Source of the DNA: Bacteroidales bacterium
Lineage (GTDB): Bacteria; Bacteroidota; Bacteroidia; Bacteroidales; VadinHA17
Length of the DNA: 43,495 nt
Reading direction: 5' to 3'
Assembly: GCA_021157415.1 (NCBI GenBank)
Contig: JAGGWN010000008.1
Coordinates: 1 to 43,495, forward strand
In this document: positions 35,221 through 43,495 of the stretch, in pieces
How the letters are laid out: the number at the start of each line of letters is the position of its first letter
Position numbering within the stretch: position 1 is the first letter of the stretch
The notes under the pieces: generated by a model
Database searches by the model: none
Told to the model about the DNA's origin: nothing
The model's input: the letters and a program-made list of their open reading frames with translations, nothing else
Program-made: the position numbers and the translations under genes

Positions 35221-36327
35221 TTAAATTTTTATAAAAAGCTTTCGTTTGTACATCCACCAGGTGATGTACCAGAGGGAGGTCCATATCAGTATGGCGGTGA
35301 GAATGTTCTCGACGGACTCTCCGGTCCAGGCAAACAGCGCATGAGTAAAAGGATAAAGAATGTGCAGGATAAAACTGCTTCCTCCCACATGGGCAAAAAG
35401 ATAGATAAACAAGGGATTCATGCCTACAACGGCAAAAAAGAGAACCCAGCTGCGGGATTTCTTAATATCGATCAGCCAATAAGAGAAGGCCAGTACCAGT
35501 AAGGCATATCCACCGCTGACGATCACAAAAGAGGAAGTGGCAATTCTCTTGATGACAGGGGTTACCGGGCTTAGTGCATAACCGGCCAGGATGCCGATCA
35601 TTCCTGCAAGGGCCAAAATCCGGAATTTTTTCATGGGGGATTTGTCGCTGATCAGAATATTTCCTGCCAAAACTCCCCAGATGGTATGAGCCGTGGTGGG
35701 GATGGCATTGAAGGATACCCAGTGACCGCTCAGGTCCTCCCCGCCGTATTGCAGGTCGAGCCAGGTACCGAAATTTTCATTGGGGGTAAAAGGATGGTTA
35801 AATCCGGGCACCCAGAAAAGCCGGTACAAGAGTTCCGTAACCAGCAAAAAAGCAAAAGATACCATTAACTGATAACGGAAGGATTTATTTCGAATCAAAA
35901 AGGCAATAAGATAAGTAACAGAAAGTTGTGCCAGCACATTCTGAAACCGGAAAGTAATCTTTCCCGGGACGATGCAATACAGGGCCCATCCCAGAATAAG
36001 TAACAGTACAGAACGTCTGATGGCATGGTGCAAAAGATCCCGGGACGACTGTCCCTGCCTGACTCTTTTGGCCACGGAGAAAGGAATAGCTACGCCGACA
36101 ATAAACATAAAGAAGGGTTGTACCAGGTCCCAGAAATGAAGTCCCTGCCAATGCTGGTGATGGAATTGCATAAACAGGGCGTGAAGGATTGTTCCTTCAG
36201 GGGTTGCATGCGTGAGATAAGAAAAAAGACCTGTGAATTCTCCGATCAGAAGGAACATGGTTGCCCCCCGGAAGAAATCCAGAGAGAGTAATCTTCCTTC
36301 AGGAATGTAAGGTTGTGATGTTTTCAT
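35221..36327 (-). CDS. Acyltransferase-like multi-pass membrane protein (DUF5009/HGSNAT type)
   Basis: A 368-residue inner-membrane protein with about ten hydrophobic segments. It starts RLLSLDFFRGATMFLLIGE, the R..SLD..RG opening of the heparan-alpha-glucosaminide N-acetyltransferase-like and DUF5009 proteins, and contains HWQGLHFWDLVQPFFMFIVGVAIPFS, GVLAGNIL and VVGMNPLFIYL. These move acetyl groups to glycans across membranes in characterised relatives. Here the substrate is unknown. It is the last gene of the thr-araB unit, 24 bases after araB. Confidence 0.85.
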   Translation of the reverse strand: MKTSQPYIPEGRLLSLDFFRGATMFLLIGEFTGLFSYLTHATPEGTILHALFMQFHHQHWQGLHFWDLVQPFFMFIVGVAIPFSVAKRVRQGQSSRDLLHHAIRRSVLLLILGWALYCIVPGKITFRFQNVLAQLSVTYLIAFLIRNKSFRYQLMVSFAFLLVTELLYRLFWVPGFNHPFTPNENFGTWLDLQYGGEDLSGHWVSFNAIPTTAHTIWGVLAGNILISDKSPMKKFRILALAGMIGILAGYALSPVTPVIKRIATSSFVIVSGGYALLVLAFSYWLIDIKKSRSWVLFFAVVGMNPLFIYLFAHVGGSSFILHILYPFTHALFAWTGESVENILTAILIWTSLWYITWWMYKRKLFIKI

Positions 36328-36351: not shown

Positions 36352-37983
36352 TCAGGTTAGTTGTTCTTCAATGAAGGTACCAAGTGTCAGATAATTTTTA
36401 TATAGTTTTTCATATAATTTGACGTTTTCCGGAATGGGCAGGTATTTTTTTTCGAAGCCGTTTCCCATGTTGTTTTGTGCTTCTTCGAATGAATCGTATA
36501 TCCCGGCGACAACAGCGGCGGCCATGGCGGCACCCAGGGCAACTGTCTGTTCGGCCCGGGCGATCTTGATCGGGCGGTTCATTACATCAGCCAGGATCTG
36601 CATAACGAAGGGTGATTTTTTGGCGATCCCTCCCAGGGCGATAACGCCTTCGAAGTCAATACCTTCTTCTACGAAACGATCTGCAATTCTTCTGGATCCA
36701 TAGGCTGTAGCTTCTACCAGGGCTCTGAACACTGCTGGGGCATCTGAACCCAGAGATAATCCGGTGATGGCTCCTTTCAGGAGGTGATTGGCGTCGGGTG
36801 TGCGGCGGCCATTGAACCAGTCGAGAGCCAGGATGCCGGATTGTCCGGGAGATGTTTTCTCTGCTTCTGAGGTGAGTCTGGCAAGGATATCTTCTTCCAG
36901 GGTCAGGTTGCCTTTGACATGGTTCAGGGGCCATGACAACAGATTTCTGAACCAGGCATATACATCACCAAAAGAAGACTGTCCTGCTTCGAGGCCCACC
37001 ATCCCGGGGATGATGGATCCGTCCACCTGGCCGCTGATGCCACGCACCATTTTATGGCCGTAACGCTCTGCCGGGACCACCATCATGTCGCAGGTTGAAG
37101 TACCCACTACTTTACTAAGGTACCCGGGTTTGATTTCACCGCCGACGGCTCCAAGATGTGCATCAAAGGCGCCGGTACCCACGACGGTCGCGGGGGTGAG
37201 TCCCAGGCGTGCAGCCCATTCTTCCGAGAGGGCCCCGGCCGGTATGTCTGCTGTGTAAGTAACAGAATAAAGATGTTCCCGAAGACCTTTCAGCATAGGA
37301 TCCAGACGTGTCAGAAACTCTTCTGACGGAAGCCCTCCGAACTCTTCATGCCACATGGCTTTGTGCCCTGCAGCACAGCGGCTTCGTTTTAAGGTTAGAG
37401 GGTCGGTGTTACCGGTGAGCAGAGCCGGCATCCAGTCACAATGTTCTACCCACGACCAGGCTGCTGCCCGCACTTTTTTATTGGTACGTAACGTATGCAG
37501 GATTTTAGCCCAGAACCACTCAGAGGAGTAAATACCTCCTGAGTATTTGGTGAAATCCGTACCTCCCCAGGTATGAGCCAGGTGGTTGATCTCTTCAGCT
37601 TCATTCACCGAAGAATGGTCTTTCCACAGGATGAACATAGCGTCCGGATCATCTTTGAATTCGTCGGTAAGCACCAGAGGAGTACCTGCACGGTTAACGG
37701 CTACAGGGGTTGAGCCGGTGGTATCGATGGTCATCCCCGCCACCTCTTCAGGATGTGCCCCTGTTTTATGCATTGCTTCACGTATGGTTTGTTCCAGTCC
37801 TTCCAGATAATCCAGTGGATGCTGGCGAAAACGGTTGGCACCAGGATCACAATACAGGCCTTTCTTCCAGCGGGGATACTCAAAGACCGCTGAGATCAGT
37901 TCCTGACCGTTGGTTGCATCAATCAATACCGAACGGACCGAATCGGTGCCGTAATCAATGCCAAAAACGAGTACCCGTTTCAT
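36352..37983 (-). CDS. araB: Ribulokinase (FGGY family)
   Basis: A 543-residue carbohydrate kinase. GIDYGTDSVRSVLIDATNG at the N-terminus, YPRWKKGLYCDPGANRFRQHPLDYLEGL, VVGTGAFDAHLGAVGG and VGTSTCDMM are typical of AraB, which phosphorylates L-ribulose to L-ribulose-5-phosphate. The C-terminal half has the second FGGY signature region (ALGGIAKKSPFVMQILADVMNRPI). No araA, araD or arabinose regulator is in the window. Its ATG overlaps the thrC stop (TAATG), and the acyltransferase-like gene follows 24 bases later. Another pentulose is also possible as substrate. Confidence 0.9.
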   Translation of the reverse strand: MKRVLVFGIDYGTDSVRSVLIDATNGQELISAVFEYPRWKKGLYCDPGANRFRQHPLDYLEGLEQTIREAMHKTGAHPEEVAGMTIDTTGSTPVAVNRAGTPLVLTDEFKDDPDAMFILWKDHSSVNEAEEINHLAHTWGGTDFTKYSGGIYSSEWFWAKILHTLRTNKKVRAAAWSWVEHCDWMPALLTGNTDPLTLKRSRCAAGHKAMWHEEFGGLPSEEFLTRLDPMLKGLREHLYSVTYTADIPAGALSEEWAARLGLTPATVVGTGAFDAHLGAVGGEIKPGYLSKVVGTSTCDMMVVPAERYGHKMVRGISGQVDGSIIPGMVGLEAGQSSFGDVYAWFRNLLSWPLNHVKGNLTLEEDILARLTSEAEKTSPGQSGILALDWFNGRRTPDANHLLKGAITGLSLGSDAPAVFRALVEATAYGSRRIADRFVEEGIDFEGVIALGGIAKKSPFVMQILADVMNRPIKIARAEQTVALGAAMAAAVVAGIYDSFEEAQNNMGNGFEKKYLPIPENVKLYEKLYKNYLTLGTFIEEQLT

Positions 37984-39290
37984 TACATTTCTTTTTTTGT
38001 TTGGAGGAGGAAGTCTTTCAGTGCTCCGTAGTCATTCCCCATACGGATGGTCTGTTTTTCCCGGTTCATACACTTTGCGAGTCTTTCCGGGATATCAGGG
38101 AGTTTCCCGGTTTCTTCGGCCACTACGTCCTTGAATTTAGCCGGGTGAGCGGTGGCGAGAAATATGCCGGGAGTGTCTTCATCTTTTTGGTTGGTTATCA
38201 ATCCCAGGTAGCCGATCGCACTGTGAGGATCCAGTATATATCCGGTATTTAAATAAACCATTCTGATGGTATTTCTTATTTCTTGTTCATCAAAGAAACA
38301 ACCGGTGACATCCCTGCGTATTTCATGGATTTTGTCATCATACATATGCCTTATGCGTGCCAGGTTACTGGGATCTCCGACATCCATTGCATTGGCGATC
38401 GTCTGAATTGACGGGTGCGGGGTATATATGCCTGTTTCAAGATATTCCGGAACCACCTTGTTTATATTGGTAGCAGCCACAAATCCTGTTACCGGCAATC
38501 CCATTTTTTTGGCCATCAATCCCGAGGTGAGGTTTCCAAAATTGCCACTGGGAACGGATATGACCGGTTTAACCTCCGGATTGCCAAGTTGTGCCCAAGC
38601 GTACAAATAGTAGAAGGATTGGGGCAATAATCGTCCAATATTGATTGAATTGGCGGAAGAAATGTTGATCCGGCTGCATAAATCATCGTCAGCAAAGGCA
38701 GATTTTACCATACGCTGGCAGTCATCGAAAGTCCCGTCAATTTCCAGCGCGGTAATATTTTCTCCCAGGGTGGTAAATTGTTTTTCCTGCAAATCACTTA
38801 CTTTCCCCTTCGGATAAAGAATGACCACATCCACTCCTTCCACGCCCAAAAAACCATGGGCAACGGCACTGCCCGTATCTCCGGAGGTAGCTACCAGGAT
38901 GGTTATTTTTTCTCCCTGTTTTGCCGTAAAGTAGGCCAGGCAACGTGCCATAAAACGTGCGCCCACATCTTTAAATGCCAGGGTTGGTCCGTGAAAGAGT
39001 TCCAGGATATGGTATTGGTCATGGAGGTGTATCAGGGGGATATTAAAATTGAGTGCATCGGTAATGATACTCCACAGGGCATCGTCGGGCAGATCATTCT
39101 CTGTGTAAGGCCGGGCTACTTTGAACGCAATCTCAGCCCAGCTCAGGTTCGGAAGTTCCCTGAAAAAAACATCAGGGAAAACAGGGATTCCTTCGGGAAC
39201 GAATAAACCCTTGTCGGGAGCCTGGCCAAGAAGGACTGCCTCTCGAAAAGAAACAGAAGGTGTTGATCTGTTCGTGCTGATGTATCTCAT
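37983..39290 (-). CDS. thrC: Threonine synthase
   Basis: A 435-residue PLP enzyme converting O-phosphohomoserine to threonine. It has the PLP-lysine region GPTLAFKDVGARFMA, the phosphate-binding ATSGDTGSAVAHGF and the Gly-rich SVPSGNFGNLTSGLMA. The N-terminus MRYISTNRSTPSVSFREAVLLGQAPDKGLFVPE is typical. It lies 32 bases after thrB; its stop overlaps the araB start. Confidence 0.96.
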   Translation of the reverse strand: MRYISTNRSTPSVSFREAVLLGQAPDKGLFVPEGIPVFPDVFFRELPNLSWAEIAFKVARPYTENDLPDDALWSIITDALNFNIPLIHLHDQYHILELFHGPTLAFKDVGARFMARCLAYFTAKQGEKITILVATSGDTGSAVAHGFLGVEGVDVVILYPKGKVSDLQEKQFTTLGENITALEIDGTFDDCQRMVKSAFADDDLCSRINISSANSINIGRLLPQSFYYLYAWAQLGNPEVKPVISVPSGNFGNLTSGLMAKKMGLPVTGFVAATNINKVVPEYLETGIYTPHPSIQTIANAMDVGDPSNLARIRHMYDDKIHEIRRDVTGCFFDEQEIRNTIRMVYLNTGYILDPHSAIGYLGLITNQKDEDTPGIFLATAHPAKFKDVVAEETGKLPDIPERLAKCMNREKQTIRMGNDYGALKDFLLQTKKEM

Positions 39291-39322: not shown

Positions 39323-40249
39323 TCATGAAATTATTTTTACTCCTTGTGTAGCAATTTTTGAAAAATAGGCGTTAAAATTGATTTCTGTATCCTGGTAAGC
39401 CTGTGTCATCGCAGTTTTTACCTTTGCTGCAACTTTCGCTCCGCGCATGAGTGCAAAAACCGACGGTCCCGATCCGGAGATGCCGCATCCGAGGGCTCCG
39501 TTTTCCATGGCAGCATTTTTTAATTTATGATAGCCCGGGATCAGCAATGAGCGTACGGGTTCCGCTACTACATCCTTCATGGATCTGGCTATAAGGTCAT
39601 AATCTTTTTTCAGGAGGCCGGTGACAAGACCGGCCACATTTCCCCATTGTTGTATGGCTGCATCCAGTGCCAGAGTTTTTTTAAGGATATCCCGGGCATC
39701 GCGTGTTCTGATTTCCACCAGAGGATGAAAAACAGTGCAGTAAAGATCCTCCGGATAGTCCAGCCGTATAATATCCAGGGGGTCGTAGCTGCGTATCAGG
39801 ACGAATCCTCCGTAGATTGCCGGAGCCACATTGTCTGCATGCCGGGTTCCGGAAGCGCTCATTTCCCCCAGCATAGCATAAGGGATCAGTTCTCTTTCGG
39901 TGTATTTCTTTTTCAGCAGGATGTTAACGGCGAATGCAGTACCGGCGGCACTGGCTCCGCTGGATCCTATCCCGCTCCCCGGGACAATGCCTTTATCCAG
40001 TTCAATTTCCAGGCCGAAGGGCATGCCATTATCTTCCAGCATTTTATGAGAAACTATGCCTGCAATGTTTTGGTTGGTATCGAGGGGAATATTGTCAGCT
40101 CCGCTAATGCGGGTAATACGGATTTCTTTGTTTTCCGTTTTCCGGAAAGTCATAATATCTCCCGGGGCTTCAACGGGAAATCCCAGGATGTCAAAACCGC
40201 AGGTTACATTTGACACGGTAGCAGGGACAAATATTTTCAATGATTCCAT
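39323..40249 (-). CDS. thrB: Homoserine kinase
   Basis: A 308-residue GHMP-family kinase that phosphorylates L-homoserine. It has the ATP-binding loop IVPGSGIGSSGASAAGTAFA, MLGEMSASGTRHADNVAPAIYGGFVL and the C-terminal GCGISGSGPSVFAL. It lies 27 bases after thrA. Confidence 0.96.
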   Translation of the reverse strand: MESLKIFVPATVSNVTCGFDILGFPVEAPGDIMTFRKTENKEIRITRISGADNIPLDTNQNIAGIVSHKMLEDNGMPFGLEIELDKGIVPGSGIGSSGASAAGTAFAVNILLKKKYTERELIPYAMLGEMSASGTRHADNVAPAIYGGFVLIRSYDPLDIIRLDYPEDLYCTVFHPLVEIRTRDARDILKKTLALDAAIQQWGNVAGLVTGLLKKDYDLIARSMKDVVAEPVRSLLIPGYHKLKNAAMENGALGCGISGSGPSVFALMRGAKVAAKVKTAMTQAYQDTEINFNAYFSKIATQGVKIIS

Positions 40250-40276: not shown

Positions 40277-42718
40277 TTAATGAACGGTACGCATGATGTC
40301 TCCGAACACTCCGGCGGCAGTGACCTCGGCACCAGCGCCAGCCCCCTGGATCACCAGGGGCTGGGATTTATATCTTTCAGTGGTGATAATCAGAATATTA
40401 TCTTTTCCTGCCAGATGATAAAACGGGTGAGCATGATCTATTTTTTTCAGGCCGATAGAGGCATTTTGTCCGTCATATTCCGCCACATAACGAAGGCTTA
40501 AGCCTTCATTTTCGGCATCTTTTCTTACTTGTTCGAAGGAATCATCATAGTTTTCCAGCAAGAGGAAAAACTCATCCAGATCCCTGGCCCGGGCGCATTC
40601 TTCCGGGAGTAAAGAATCTCTTTTCACTTCATCAATGTTCATAACGGCTCCTGCTTCCCGGGCCAGGATCAGGATCTTTCGGGCGACATCTTCTCCGCTG
40701 AGGTCTATCCTCGGATCAGGCTCGGTGAGACCTTTCTGCATGGCCTCGCGCACTGTCTGTGAGAAGGGTTGTTCCGGACCGAAAGTATTGAAGATATAGT
40801 TCAACGTACCTGACAATACCGCTTCGATGCGCAGAATTCTGTCGCCGCTTTGTACCAGGTCATTCATGGTCCTTATCACGGGCAGGCCGGCGCCGACGTT
40901 GGTTTCAAAGAGCAGGGAGACATTCCTTTTACGTGCCAGGACCCGGTTTTGCTGATAAAAGGGATAGTCTGCAGCAATACCGGCTTTATTAGAGGCTACC
41001 ACGGAAATGCTGGTATCCAGAATCTCTTTGTACCATCCCGGAATTTCCGTGCTGGCTGTATTATCAACAAAAACACTGTTGCGGAGATTGTAGTTTTTCA
41101 TCTTTTTTACGAAGGAAGCCATATCCGTCGGAGAACCCTCAACCTTGAGTTGTTCTTCCCATGTGTCAAGGTTTATGCCTTCATAGTTTAACAACATTTT
41201 CCTGCTATTAGCCACGCCCGCGAGATTAAATTCGATAGAAAATTCTTCACGCAGGTATTTTCGTTGTGCTGCAATTTGTTGCATGAGCGTCTTTCCCACA
41301 TTGCCTACTCCCACGATAAACAAATTGACTTTTCTGTATTGTGACAGGAAGAATGTCTCATGCAGGACATTCATGGCTTTTTTCAGGTCTTTCCGGTTGA
41401 TAACCACCGATATGTTTTTTTCGGTGGATCCCTGTGCGATGGCAATGACATTGATTCCGTTGCGTCCCAATGCGGCGAAAGTTTTTCCGGACAATCCGAT
41501 GCTACGTTTCATATTGTTGCCGACCAGGGCAACCATGGCAAGATTGGTTTCCACTTCAACGGGATTAATGCGGTTGTATTTCATCTCCAGGGAGAACTCA
41601 TCACGTATCAGGGTGATCACCAGGTCGAGGTGATCTTCCGGGATGCCGAACGTGATGGAGTATTCGGAAGAGGCTTGGGTAAGGAAGACCACGTCCACGG
41701 ATTGGTTGCTCAGAAGGCGGAATAGACGGGCTGCTATCCCGGAAGGGCCGGAGATACTGGTGCCGGAGAGAGTAAGCAGGACCAACTGATCTATACCCGA
41801 TATTCCCTTTACCGGATGAGCGTTGGGGAGTGTTTCGCTGGTGATAAGTGTCCCCGGATCGTCAGGGGAAAAAGTGTTGAGGATATGGACGTTTATGTCT
41901 TCCCTTAGTAGCGGTTGTATCGCGGGAGGATGGATGATCCGTGCGCCAAAGGTAGAAAGCTCCATGGCTTCTTCGTAGGTGAGATGCTCAATGGGGCGGG
42001 CTTGTTTGACGATCCTCGGATCAGCCGTCATCACACCGGAGACGTCCGTCCATATCTCCAGTTGTCCGGCTTTCATAGCTCCGGCAACCAACGCGGCCGT
42101 ATAATCAGAGCCGTTTCGTCCGAGAGTGGTTGGTATGTCGGTCATGGTCGATGCAATAAAACCGGGGAGTAAATAATTGTTTCCTTTCTTTATATGACGG
42201 CGTAATAGTTTGTATGTGATTTCCATGTTTACCACCGCCTGACCGAACTTGTCGTCGGTACGGATCAGTTCACGTGCATTGAGAAGCGTGACGGGGAATT
42301 TATCTGTTTTCAGGGTTTTGTATAAAATGAAGGAAGAAAGGATTTCTCCGAATCCCAGTAGTTTATCACGGGTTTTTACAGAGAGGTCACGAGTCAGAAA
42401 GATGCCGTTGGTCAGGTCTTCCAGTTCATTCAGGGTTCTTTTTACATTGGAGAGTATGCGGCTTTGTACGGTTACAGGTATCAGTTCGTATATCCATTGG
42501 AGATGAAGGTTTTCAATTTCTTTCAACTCTTCTGCATACCGTTCGTTTCCTGCTGCGGCCATTTCCCCCGCCCTGGTTAGGTGGTCCGTAGTGTCTCCTA
42601 TGGCCGATAACACCACTACCATGCCTGCGGGGTTGGCACGGCTGAGGATAATCTGTTTCACTCTTCTTATGCATGTGGCACAAGCCAGAGATGATCCGCC
42701 AAATTTTAATATTTTCAT
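40277..42718 (-). CDS. thrA: Bifunctional aspartokinase/homoserine dehydrogenase
   Basis: An 813-residue fusion. The aspartokinase part (~1-290) has KFGGSSLA, TLGRNGSDYTAALVAGAM and EIWTDVSGVMTADPRIV; tandem ACT domains (~300-460) provide feedback sensing; the homoserine dehydrogenase part (~465-813) has VGVGNVGKTLMQQI and FETNVGAGLPVIRTMNDL. It catalyses the first and third steps of the threonine/methionine branch. A 246-base leader separates it from the upstream promoter and contains a threonine-rich leader ORF (42865-42963). Confidence 0.96.
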   Translation of the reverse strand: MKILKFGGSSLACATCIRRVKQIILSRANPAGMVVVLSAIGDTTDHLTRAGEMAAAGNERYAEELKEIENLHLQWIYELIPVTVQSRILSNVKRTLNELEDLTNGIFLTRDLSVKTRDKLLGFGEILSSFILYKTLKTDKFPVTLLNARELIRTDDKFGQAVVNMEITYKLLRRHIKKGNNYLLPGFIASTMTDIPTTLGRNGSDYTAALVAGAMKAGQLEIWTDVSGVMTADPRIVKQARPIEHLTYEEAMELSTFGARIIHPPAIQPLLREDINVHILNTFSPDDPGTLITSETLPNAHPVKGISGIDQLVLLTLSGTSISGPSGIAARLFRLLSNQSVDVVFLTQASSEYSITFGIPEDHLDLVITLIRDEFSLEMKYNRINPVEVETNLAMVALVGNNMKRSIGLSGKTFAALGRNGINVIAIAQGSTEKNISVVINRKDLKKAMNVLHETFFLSQYRKVNLFIVGVGNVGKTLMQQIAAQRKYLREEFSIEFNLAGVANSRKMLLNYEGINLDTWEEQLKVEGSPTDMASFVKKMKNYNLRNSVFVDNTASTEIPGWYKEILDTSISVVASNKAGIAADYPFYQQNRVLARKRNVSLLFETNVGAGLPVIRTMNDLVQSGDRILRIEAVLSGTLNYIFNTFGPEQPFSQTVREAMQKGLTEPDPRIDLSGEDVARKILILAREAGAVMNIDEVKRDSLLPEECARARDLDEFFLLLENYDDSFEQVRKDAENEGLSLRYVAEYDGQNASIGLKKIDHAHPFYHLAGKDNILIITTERYKSQPLVIQGAGAGAEVTAAGVFGDIMRTVH

Positions 42719-42845
42719 GAGTTATAACTTTCCTATGATTTGACCTAAATGGTTATGTTATTTATAAATCTTTGACCATGTTCTAACAATATGATAAACG
42801 CATTGCAACGAACAGGCAGTTAATAAATATATATGTATTGCGGAT

Positions 42846-42877
42846 AAAAAATCATGAAAACCCCTTACGGGGTCATG
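42846..42877 (-). terminator. Candidate thr attenuator hairpin
   Basis: On the minus strand CATGACCCC (42877-42869) pairs with GGGG then TCATG (42864-42853), with loop GTAA and a 3-base TTT bulge on the right arm, followed by A and six T (42851-42846). The leader ORF stop TAA sits in the loop. An alternative pairing of CCCTTAC (42890-42884) with GTAAGGG (42868-42862) would exclude it, as expected of an attenuator/antiterminator pair. Confidence 0.5.
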
Positions 42878-42963
42878 GTCAAGGTAAGGGTAGCAGCATT
42901 AAAGCCACGCATTCGGCTTTCACAACCGACAGAACTGTTTACCATAAGTGTATAAACATTCAT
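42865..42963 (-). CDS. Candidate thr operon leader peptide (32 codons)
   Basis: A short ORF beginning ATG at 42963, about 18 bases after the -7 box at 42981-42988, and ending in ATLTLTMTP and TAA. Thr occupies four of the last eight codons (all ACC, alternating with Leu, Leu, Met), with another Thr at codon 5. A 6-bp hairpin AAAGCC/GGCTTT (42901-42920) lies inside the ORF and a terminator-like hairpin overlaps its end. This is the layout of a ribosome-stalling leader upstream of a threonine operon. The name rests on position and composition only; other in-frame ATGs are codons 7 and 18. Confidence 0.6.
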   Translation of the reverse strand: MNVYTLMVNSSVGCESRMRGFNAATLTLTMTP

Positions 42964-42980
42964 AATGATCTTTCTGTCAA

Positions 42981-42988
42981 CAAATATA
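42981..42988 (-). promoter_or_regulatory. -7 promoter element of the thr operon
   Basis: The minus strand reads TATATTTG, an exact TAnnTTTG match. It is directly followed by the leader ORF, so the 5' untranslated leader would be short. The region 42719-42845 between the attenuator and thrA is AT-rich with no other clear structure. Confidence 0.6.
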
Positions 42989-43053: not shown

Positions 43054-43495
43054 TTAATACGGACAGTATATGGCTCCGTTATTATGTTTATCAGGAAAAT
43101 TATAGATGATTGAGACAGAGAGCAGATACATAAAATCGTTTGCTTCGGAATAGGGTGAAGAAAAACCGTCTGTATAATCGGAAAAAACAAATTGTGGCAT
43201 CAATTCTCCTCTGACAGCGAGGCTTTCGGAGATACCATACTGAACACCGACACCAAAAGGAATGGCAAGGGAGATATTCTTCAGTTTTGACGGGTCAGTC
43301 GGAGAAAAGTTATTGCCCGGAGCAACGACAGCATACGGAAAGGAGAGGCCTCCTATCACATCTACCCGCCAGCGGTCCCAGTATCTTACCAGTTTTTTTT
43401 TGTTATAACCTCTGTGTTTATCGACAAAAAAAGAATAAACAGCCTGAACGGAAGGCTGCCACAGCACAGACCGATAGGCATAATTGCGGCTGGAA
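43054..43495 (-). CDS. Outer-membrane beta-barrel protein, N-terminus cut by window edge
   Basis: The C-terminal ~146 residues of a protein whose frame is open to the right edge. It shows alternating strand patterns (WRVDVIGGLSFPYAVVA, ISLAIPFGVGVQYGIS, LAVRGELMPQFVFSDY, FMYLLSVSIIYNF), typical of small Bacteroidota outer-membrane barrels. The last residues PDKHNNGAIYCPY extend past the last obvious strand. GTG at 43467 is an internal codon, not the start, because the upstream sequence continues in frame (NYAYRS). Function is unknown. Confidence 0.6.
   Translation of the reverse strand, partial: SSRNYAYRSVLWQPSVQAVYSFFVDKHRGYNKKKLVRYWDRWRVDVIGGLSFPYAVVAPGNNFSPTDPSKLKNISLAIPFGVGVQYGISESLAVRGELMPQFVFSDYTDGFSSPYSEANDFMYLLSVSIIYNFPDKHNNGAIYCPY

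Follow-up and report, generated by a model that had tools for sequence, protein, structure and literature searches.

The window analysed here (the whole stretch of DNA, 43,495 nucleotides, belonging to a 3.3 Mb assembly of 128 contigs) carries the thrABC operon on its minus strand, preceded in order by a -7 promoter box, a threonine-rich open reading frame (ORF), a hairpin with CCCC and GGGG arms (H1), and a run of six T. The features of the region, from upstream to downstream, are listed with their basis in brackets:

42981 to 42988, minus strand: Bacteroidota -7 promoter box TATATTTG (match to the TAnnTTTG consensus only)
42965 to 42974, minus strand: 5' arm of a possible long-range helix P0 (GAAAGATCAT), just before the leader ATG (duplex energy against shuffles)
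42865 to 42963, minus strand: putative threonine leader peptide ORF, 32 codons plus TAA (sequence and ORF list; counterparts in relatives)
42893 to 42908, minus strand: small upstream hairpin P1 (GTGGC/GCTGC), within the ORF (consensus fold of the genus)
42868 to 42891, minus strand: regulatory Thr codons (four ACC) through the last Pro codon (sequence)
42846 to 42877, minus strand: full terminator-like structure, CATG-ACCCC-GTAA-GGGGTTTT-CATG and then ATTTTTT (RNAfold)
42861 to 42872, minus strand: core hairpin H1, CCCC-GTAA-GGGG (stop codon in the loop)
42829 to 42838, minus strand: ATACATATAT, a possible counterpart of the CATAT element (conservation in congeners)
40277 to 42718, minus strand: thrA, bifunctional aspartate kinase / homoserine dehydrogenase I (NCBIfam NF006959, 977.6 bits against a cut-off of 726)
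39323 to 40249, minus strand: thrB, homoserine kinase (NCBIfam NF002288 and TIGR00191, above cut-off)
37983 to 39290, minus strand: thrC, threonine synthase (NCBIfam TIGR00260, above cut-off)

The original prediction of an attenuator-like anatomy ahead of thrABC is supported, with the operon genes confirmed by curated families, and its account of the individual parts is largely borne out. The consensus -7 box is present as TATATTTG at 42988-42981, and both the sequence and the ORF list contain the 32-codon ORF, which runs from an ATG at 42963 to a TAA at 42867-42865 and encodes MNVYTLMVNSSVGCESRMRGFNAATLTLTMTP with the C-terminus ATLTLTMTP. Four ACC codons fall among its final eight (ACC CTT ACC TTG ACC ATG ACC CCG), and the TAA lies, as described, inside the GTAA loop of the stem, between the arms 42872-42869 (CCCC) and 42864-42861 (GGGG). 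H1 can be extended by pairing of CATG at 42877-42874 with CATG at 42856-42853, followed by an A and the six T (42851-42846), and the extended structure has a predicted energy of -12.1 kcal/mol (RNAfold, 52 nt). The predicted span of 42846-42988 was right for the core of the element; the conserved ATACATAT at 42838-42831 lies just beyond it, about 25 nt after H1. Among the neighboring genes on the same strand, an ORF at 43054-43467 that ends just upstream of the leader promoter had no match in a Pfam search, and close behind thrC lie a ribulokinase gene (36352-37983) and a gene for a NagX-like transmembrane acyltransferase (35221-36327), the NagX match being below cut-off.

The comparison of relatives' thrA upstream regions that had been proposed as a check demonstrates that the ORF, the Thr codons and the hairpin are kept in five congeners (L003-L007; ThrA identity 71-92%). 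Congener leaders have the -7 box, an ATG about 20 nt further on, and an ORF of 32-33 codons with a Thr-rich tail and a Pro, the tails ranging from ATATMTMTP to ITTTTTTP. The -7 box TATATTTG is identical and in the same place in all five, takes the form TATCTTTG in a second genus (L008), where the leader ends MTNMTP* within the same hairpin, and is also present in most of the phylum leaders displayed; this conserved consensus points to a candidate promoter upstream of the leader ORF. The hairpin segment ACCCCGTARGGGGT, with the stop codon in its loop, is kept in all five congeners, and ATACATAT is kept in L003, L004, L006 and L007 (L005 has TACACATAT). The N-terminal half of the peptide diverges among the congeners, and codon-position substitution counts there are weak and uninformative. 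H1-type leaders occur at 10 of 29 thrA loci in the order sample, and the sister genus g12 (L016-L031) is mostly without such a leader. Many g12 loci have a short GCATCYTTTGAGATGC-like hairpin right after the -7 box, about 20 nt before the thrA start.

Consensus folding of the genus (RNAalifold) gives H1 as a 6 bp helix and detects no conserved competitor of its core. The upstream hairpin P1 (5 bp, 96.7% of cells paired in the genus, with changes on one side only) was not seen outside the genus, and is compatible with H1 and hence not an antiterminator. The competing pairing of CCCTTAC (42890-42884) with GTAAGGG (42868-42862), which the original prediction had placed at the Thr codons, is present in the window and absent in the closest relative, L003, which reads CACTGCCACC there; the pairing is therefore probably accidental and was rejected as an antiterminator. 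The helix P0 would join the segment just before the leader ATG to 42855-42846 (ATGATTTTTT), the U-tract segment just after H1. Its duplex energy in the window is -10.8 kcal/mol (2% of shuffles are as low), in L006 these regions also pair, through different bases (UCCUGAAAUA/UAUUUCAGGA), at -15.3 (none of 100 shuffles as strong), and L183 and L185 fall at or below 5% of shuffles, while the same test of duplexes against shuffles detects no P0 in L004 or L005. If it forms, P0 would compete for the U-tract and cover the leader start, making it a possible part of leader shut-off or of antitermination.

Evidence that threonine is the relevant amino acid comes from 80 named Bacteroidota thrA loci, chosen solely by ThrA similarity and scanned for Thr-rich ORFs without any hairpin anchor. 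With a Thr run defined as five or more Thr within ten codons, 52.5% of these upstream regions contain one, compared with 0.8% of first-order Markov shuffles; for none of the other amino acids are runs comparably enriched in the 80 regions. Thr-rich leaders were found in records of Flavobacteriaceae, Chitinophagaceae, Cytophagales and Bacteroidales. In a set of 106 leaders anchored on the hairpin (the Thr counts of which are partly selected, because this anchor favors upstream ACN codons), the stop codon lies within the hairpin in 64 and no more than 12 nt beyond it in 40, together 104 of 106 with the window included. Only one reading frame carries the threonine signal: across about 100 leaders, the 11 codons preceding the stem contain on average 4.78 ACN codons in frame, and the two alternative frames 0.15 and 0.08. 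Each of the four synonyms is used (ACT 181, ACA 166, ACC 94, ACG 37), and the second most frequent residue is Ile (16.5%), which is itself made from Thr. C-termini vary (P*, R*, L*, PLG*, PFGV*, LWGC*, LRG*) while ACCC-loop-GGGT and its overlap with the stop persist, which points to selection on the RNA element alongside the peptide. Covariation was discarded as structural proof of H1 pairing, because the CCC/GGG core is invariant in 24 aligned relatives.

A covariance model (R1) built from 24 leaders other than that of the window, and run over 393 phylum genomes at E values up to 0.05, has matches in 54 of them, exactly one per genome; this is a lower bound, since R1 misses the window's own leader. 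All 30 of the matches that were examined sit 89-200 nt before thrA. One family represented among the matches belongs to a class other than that of the window; it may be Balneolaceae, because L034 (named Balneolaceae) and L162 encode the same leader peptide. The combination of hairpin and CATAT was rejected as a general attenuator signal, the other matches in 18 genomes being scattered coding sequence, and a search of the same genomes for a similar His leader by a His-run pattern gave only coding sequence among the matches read.

Downstream of H1, the leaders take two forms. A run of six or more T within 22 nt of H1 follows 7 of 18 Bacteroidales leaders (1 expected) versus 1 of 82 others, so the six T noted after the stem are a Bacteroidales variant and not the form of the phylum at large. 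The stem extensions beside the U-run differ (CATG/CATG in the window, GCAAC/GTTGC in L185), as would be expected of working terminators. The other form is the motif [CT]ATAT, often reading CATATNAYC, found 6-14 nt after H1 in 73 of 82 non-Bacteroidales leaders (6 expected) versus 2 of 18 from Bacteroidales. The window has no CATAT at 6-14 nt after the hairpin and has ATACATAT instead, the homology of which to the CATAT element is uncertain because of its greater distance from H1. Flavobacteriaceae, Chitinophagaceae and Balneolaceae-like leaders often have, behind CATAT and 15-45 nt past H1, another small hairpin that varies in sequence and lacks a U-run. The missing U-run is not a property of the phylum, since Bacteroid-trp in two Flavobacterium genomes has an ordinary U-run terminator. 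At two further loci (L174 and L175), a Thr-rich ORF is followed by a separate ordinary terminator upstream of thrA, GCCATCC/GGATGGC-TTTTT in L174 and GCGCCTTTC/GAAAGGCGC-TTTT in L175; the L175 arrangement is close to the textbook one, its terminator loop containing CTCAACT, which could base-pair with AGTTGAG close to the end of the ORF.

It is considered likely, from the sequence comparisons, that this leader is a ribosome-mediated transcription attenuator of thrABC that senses charged threonine tRNA. Because many Bacteroidota have the same device ahead of these genes, a stalling ribosome is probably how they detect a lack of threonine. Judging from the -7 box and the ORF, transcription would start some twelve bases upstream of the leader ATG, and translation of the leader would accompany its synthesis. 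When threonine is ample, the ribosome would quickly arrive at the stop codon in the loop of H1 and depart, and H1 would fold; in the window's lineage, the extended stem, which is predicted to abut the six U, would then end transcription. When threonine is scarce, the ribosome would stay on the last ACC codons, in or just before the left arm of H1, and the blocked hairpin would allow RNA polymerase to continue into thrABC, a step that the footprint arithmetic favors. The search for a conserved antiterminator having found none, the switch would be a direct competition between ribosome and hairpin. Other orders retain the peptide and H1, with CATAT about 10 nt after H1 in place of the U-run; this element may mark a pause or a termination site of another design.

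In a simple footprint calculation, the ribosome was taken to span from 12 nt upstream of the P-site codon to 12 nt counted from the first base of the A-site codon. On that basis H1 cannot form with codon 28 or any later one in the A-site, and A-site codons up to and including 27 leave it free. Stalls at ACC codons 29 and 31 would therefore permit readthrough and stalls at codons 25 and 27 would not, so that the earlier claim of slowed ribosomes covering the left arm stands for the later pair of codons and not for the earlier pair. Early-codon stalls would be reconciled with the model if a slow ribosome arrived while the polymerase waited near H1, and a Rho-based form, with the C-rich Thr run as loading site, would likewise reconcile them. 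In Flavobacterium leaders the Thr runs extend a good deal further upstream, an arrangement that simple occlusion does not fit unless a paused polymerase makes timing important. The lack of a U-run in most non-Bacteroidales leaders, and of such a leader in most of sister genus g12, likewise counts against the attenuator reading. The wider proposal, that the phylum shares an attenuator without an antiterminator in which the ribosome competes with a hairpin that includes the final Thr codon and the stop, and which in most of the phylum acts via CATAT rather than a U-run, is put forward as possible but doubtful.

The Rho-dependent version supposes that slowed ribosomes shield the Thr run and that, on their departure, Rho loads there and ends transcription at an H1/CATAT pause. 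The ACN repeats are C-rich, G-poor and unstructured, resembling a Rho loading site, and such a process would explain why most lineages can do without a U-run and what benefit long Thr runs bring. H1 also lies about 10-13 nt before CATAT, and hairpin-stabilised pauses have a similar spacing between hairpin and pause. However, the ACN composition results from coding Thr anyway, and the U6-U7 after H1 in the window and several Bacteroidales would be needless for Rho; this version is thought unlikely. A classical three-state attenuator whose antiterminator is specific to the lineage, be it CCCTTAC/GTAAGGG or P0 (the 5' end with the U-tract), is rather unlikely, although the former pairing exists in the window, P0 has substitutions in both arms within the genus and is matched by few shuffles in the window, L006, L183 and L185, and the L175 leader with its separate terminator is nearer the textbook layout. 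Each candidate is missing from close relatives (CCCTTAC/GTAAGGG from L003, P0 from L004 and L005), and P0 also covers the leader start region and could equally limit leader translation.

The peptide could also be a real Thr leader that controls thrA translation or RNA stability, with no regulated termination, as might be supposed from leaders in most non-Bacteroidales lineages, where a terminator is not recognisable and a second small hairpin often follows CATAT. The distance between hairpin and thrA, from less than 60 to more than 200 nt, is nevertheless too loose for translational coupling, U-runs are enriched in Bacteroidales, and the phylum does use termination (compare the regular U-run terminator of Bacteroid-trp in Flavobacterium), all of which makes this explanation quite improbable. 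That the ORF is fortuitous and sits beside an ordinary 5' hairpin, with no threonine regulation, is scarcely credible: the poorly conserved N-terminal half and the weak codon-position test in the genus are what would be expected in that case, but the threonine-only enrichment across the phylum, the single frame and the one thrA-linked match per genome contradict it. Ribosome-mediated attenuation is retained as the preferred reading of the locus.

The Bacteroidota thrA leader appears to be covered by no Rfam family, and its parts differ from those of the textbook E. coli version. Searching the window against Rfam gave no family at the gathering threshold, including the Thr leader (the E. coli family, RF00506), Bacteroid-trp and T-box. 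The Thr leader family likewise had no gathering match in 13 relatives, with no thr family at E values up to 10, and Bacteroid-trp (RF01692) had no match in the window's genome or its congeners. Attenuation, though a mechanism found in every textbook, is known chiefly from the enteric bacteria. A comparative attenuator survey from 2010 (Lopatovskaya et al.; a 2010 survey of bacterial attenuation is cited in PMC4833913) may include Bacteroidota threonine leaders, and some of the leaders described here may have been predicted earlier. Bacteroid-trp has been described as a Bacteroidota attenuator (PMC2864571, PMC6414381), and it was the sole one found in a literature search that returned no paper on a Bacteroidota threonine leader. 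Start signals and RNA control in Bacteroidota are little studied, and a single element, present once per genome and always before thrA in the matches examined, offers a clean, testable threonine sensor in a major phylum, in which the U-run and CATAT outputs could reveal how Bacteroidota RNA polymerase pauses and terminates.

Bacteroid-trp RNA resembles the thrA leader in being a Bacteroidota leader peptide attenuator with regulatory codons in the left arm of a hairpin, but it carries Trp codons, precedes trp genes, and has a long hairpin followed by a separate canonical terminator (GGGCTTGTC/GACAAGCCC plus a T run). The E. coli pheA and hisG leaders share the short peptide and the run of the cognate residue near its end with few residues after it; unlike the thrA leader, they have classical antiterminators and are not known to place their stop codon in the terminator loop. 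The distal leader segment of E. coli trpL has been proposed to pair with the leader start region and so limit its own translation, which P0, if real, would parallel, although P0 is supported in few species only. As for the E. coli thr attenuator (ThrL), its terminator lies downstream, whereas the hairpin described here takes in the final Thr codon and the stop, with no conserved antiterminator found and no Rfam match. Both have a leader peptide rich in Thr and Ile before thrABC, and in both the position of the ribosome is proposed to decide whether the terminator forms; as far as anatomy tells, the Bacteroidota leader would work like its E. coli counterpart.
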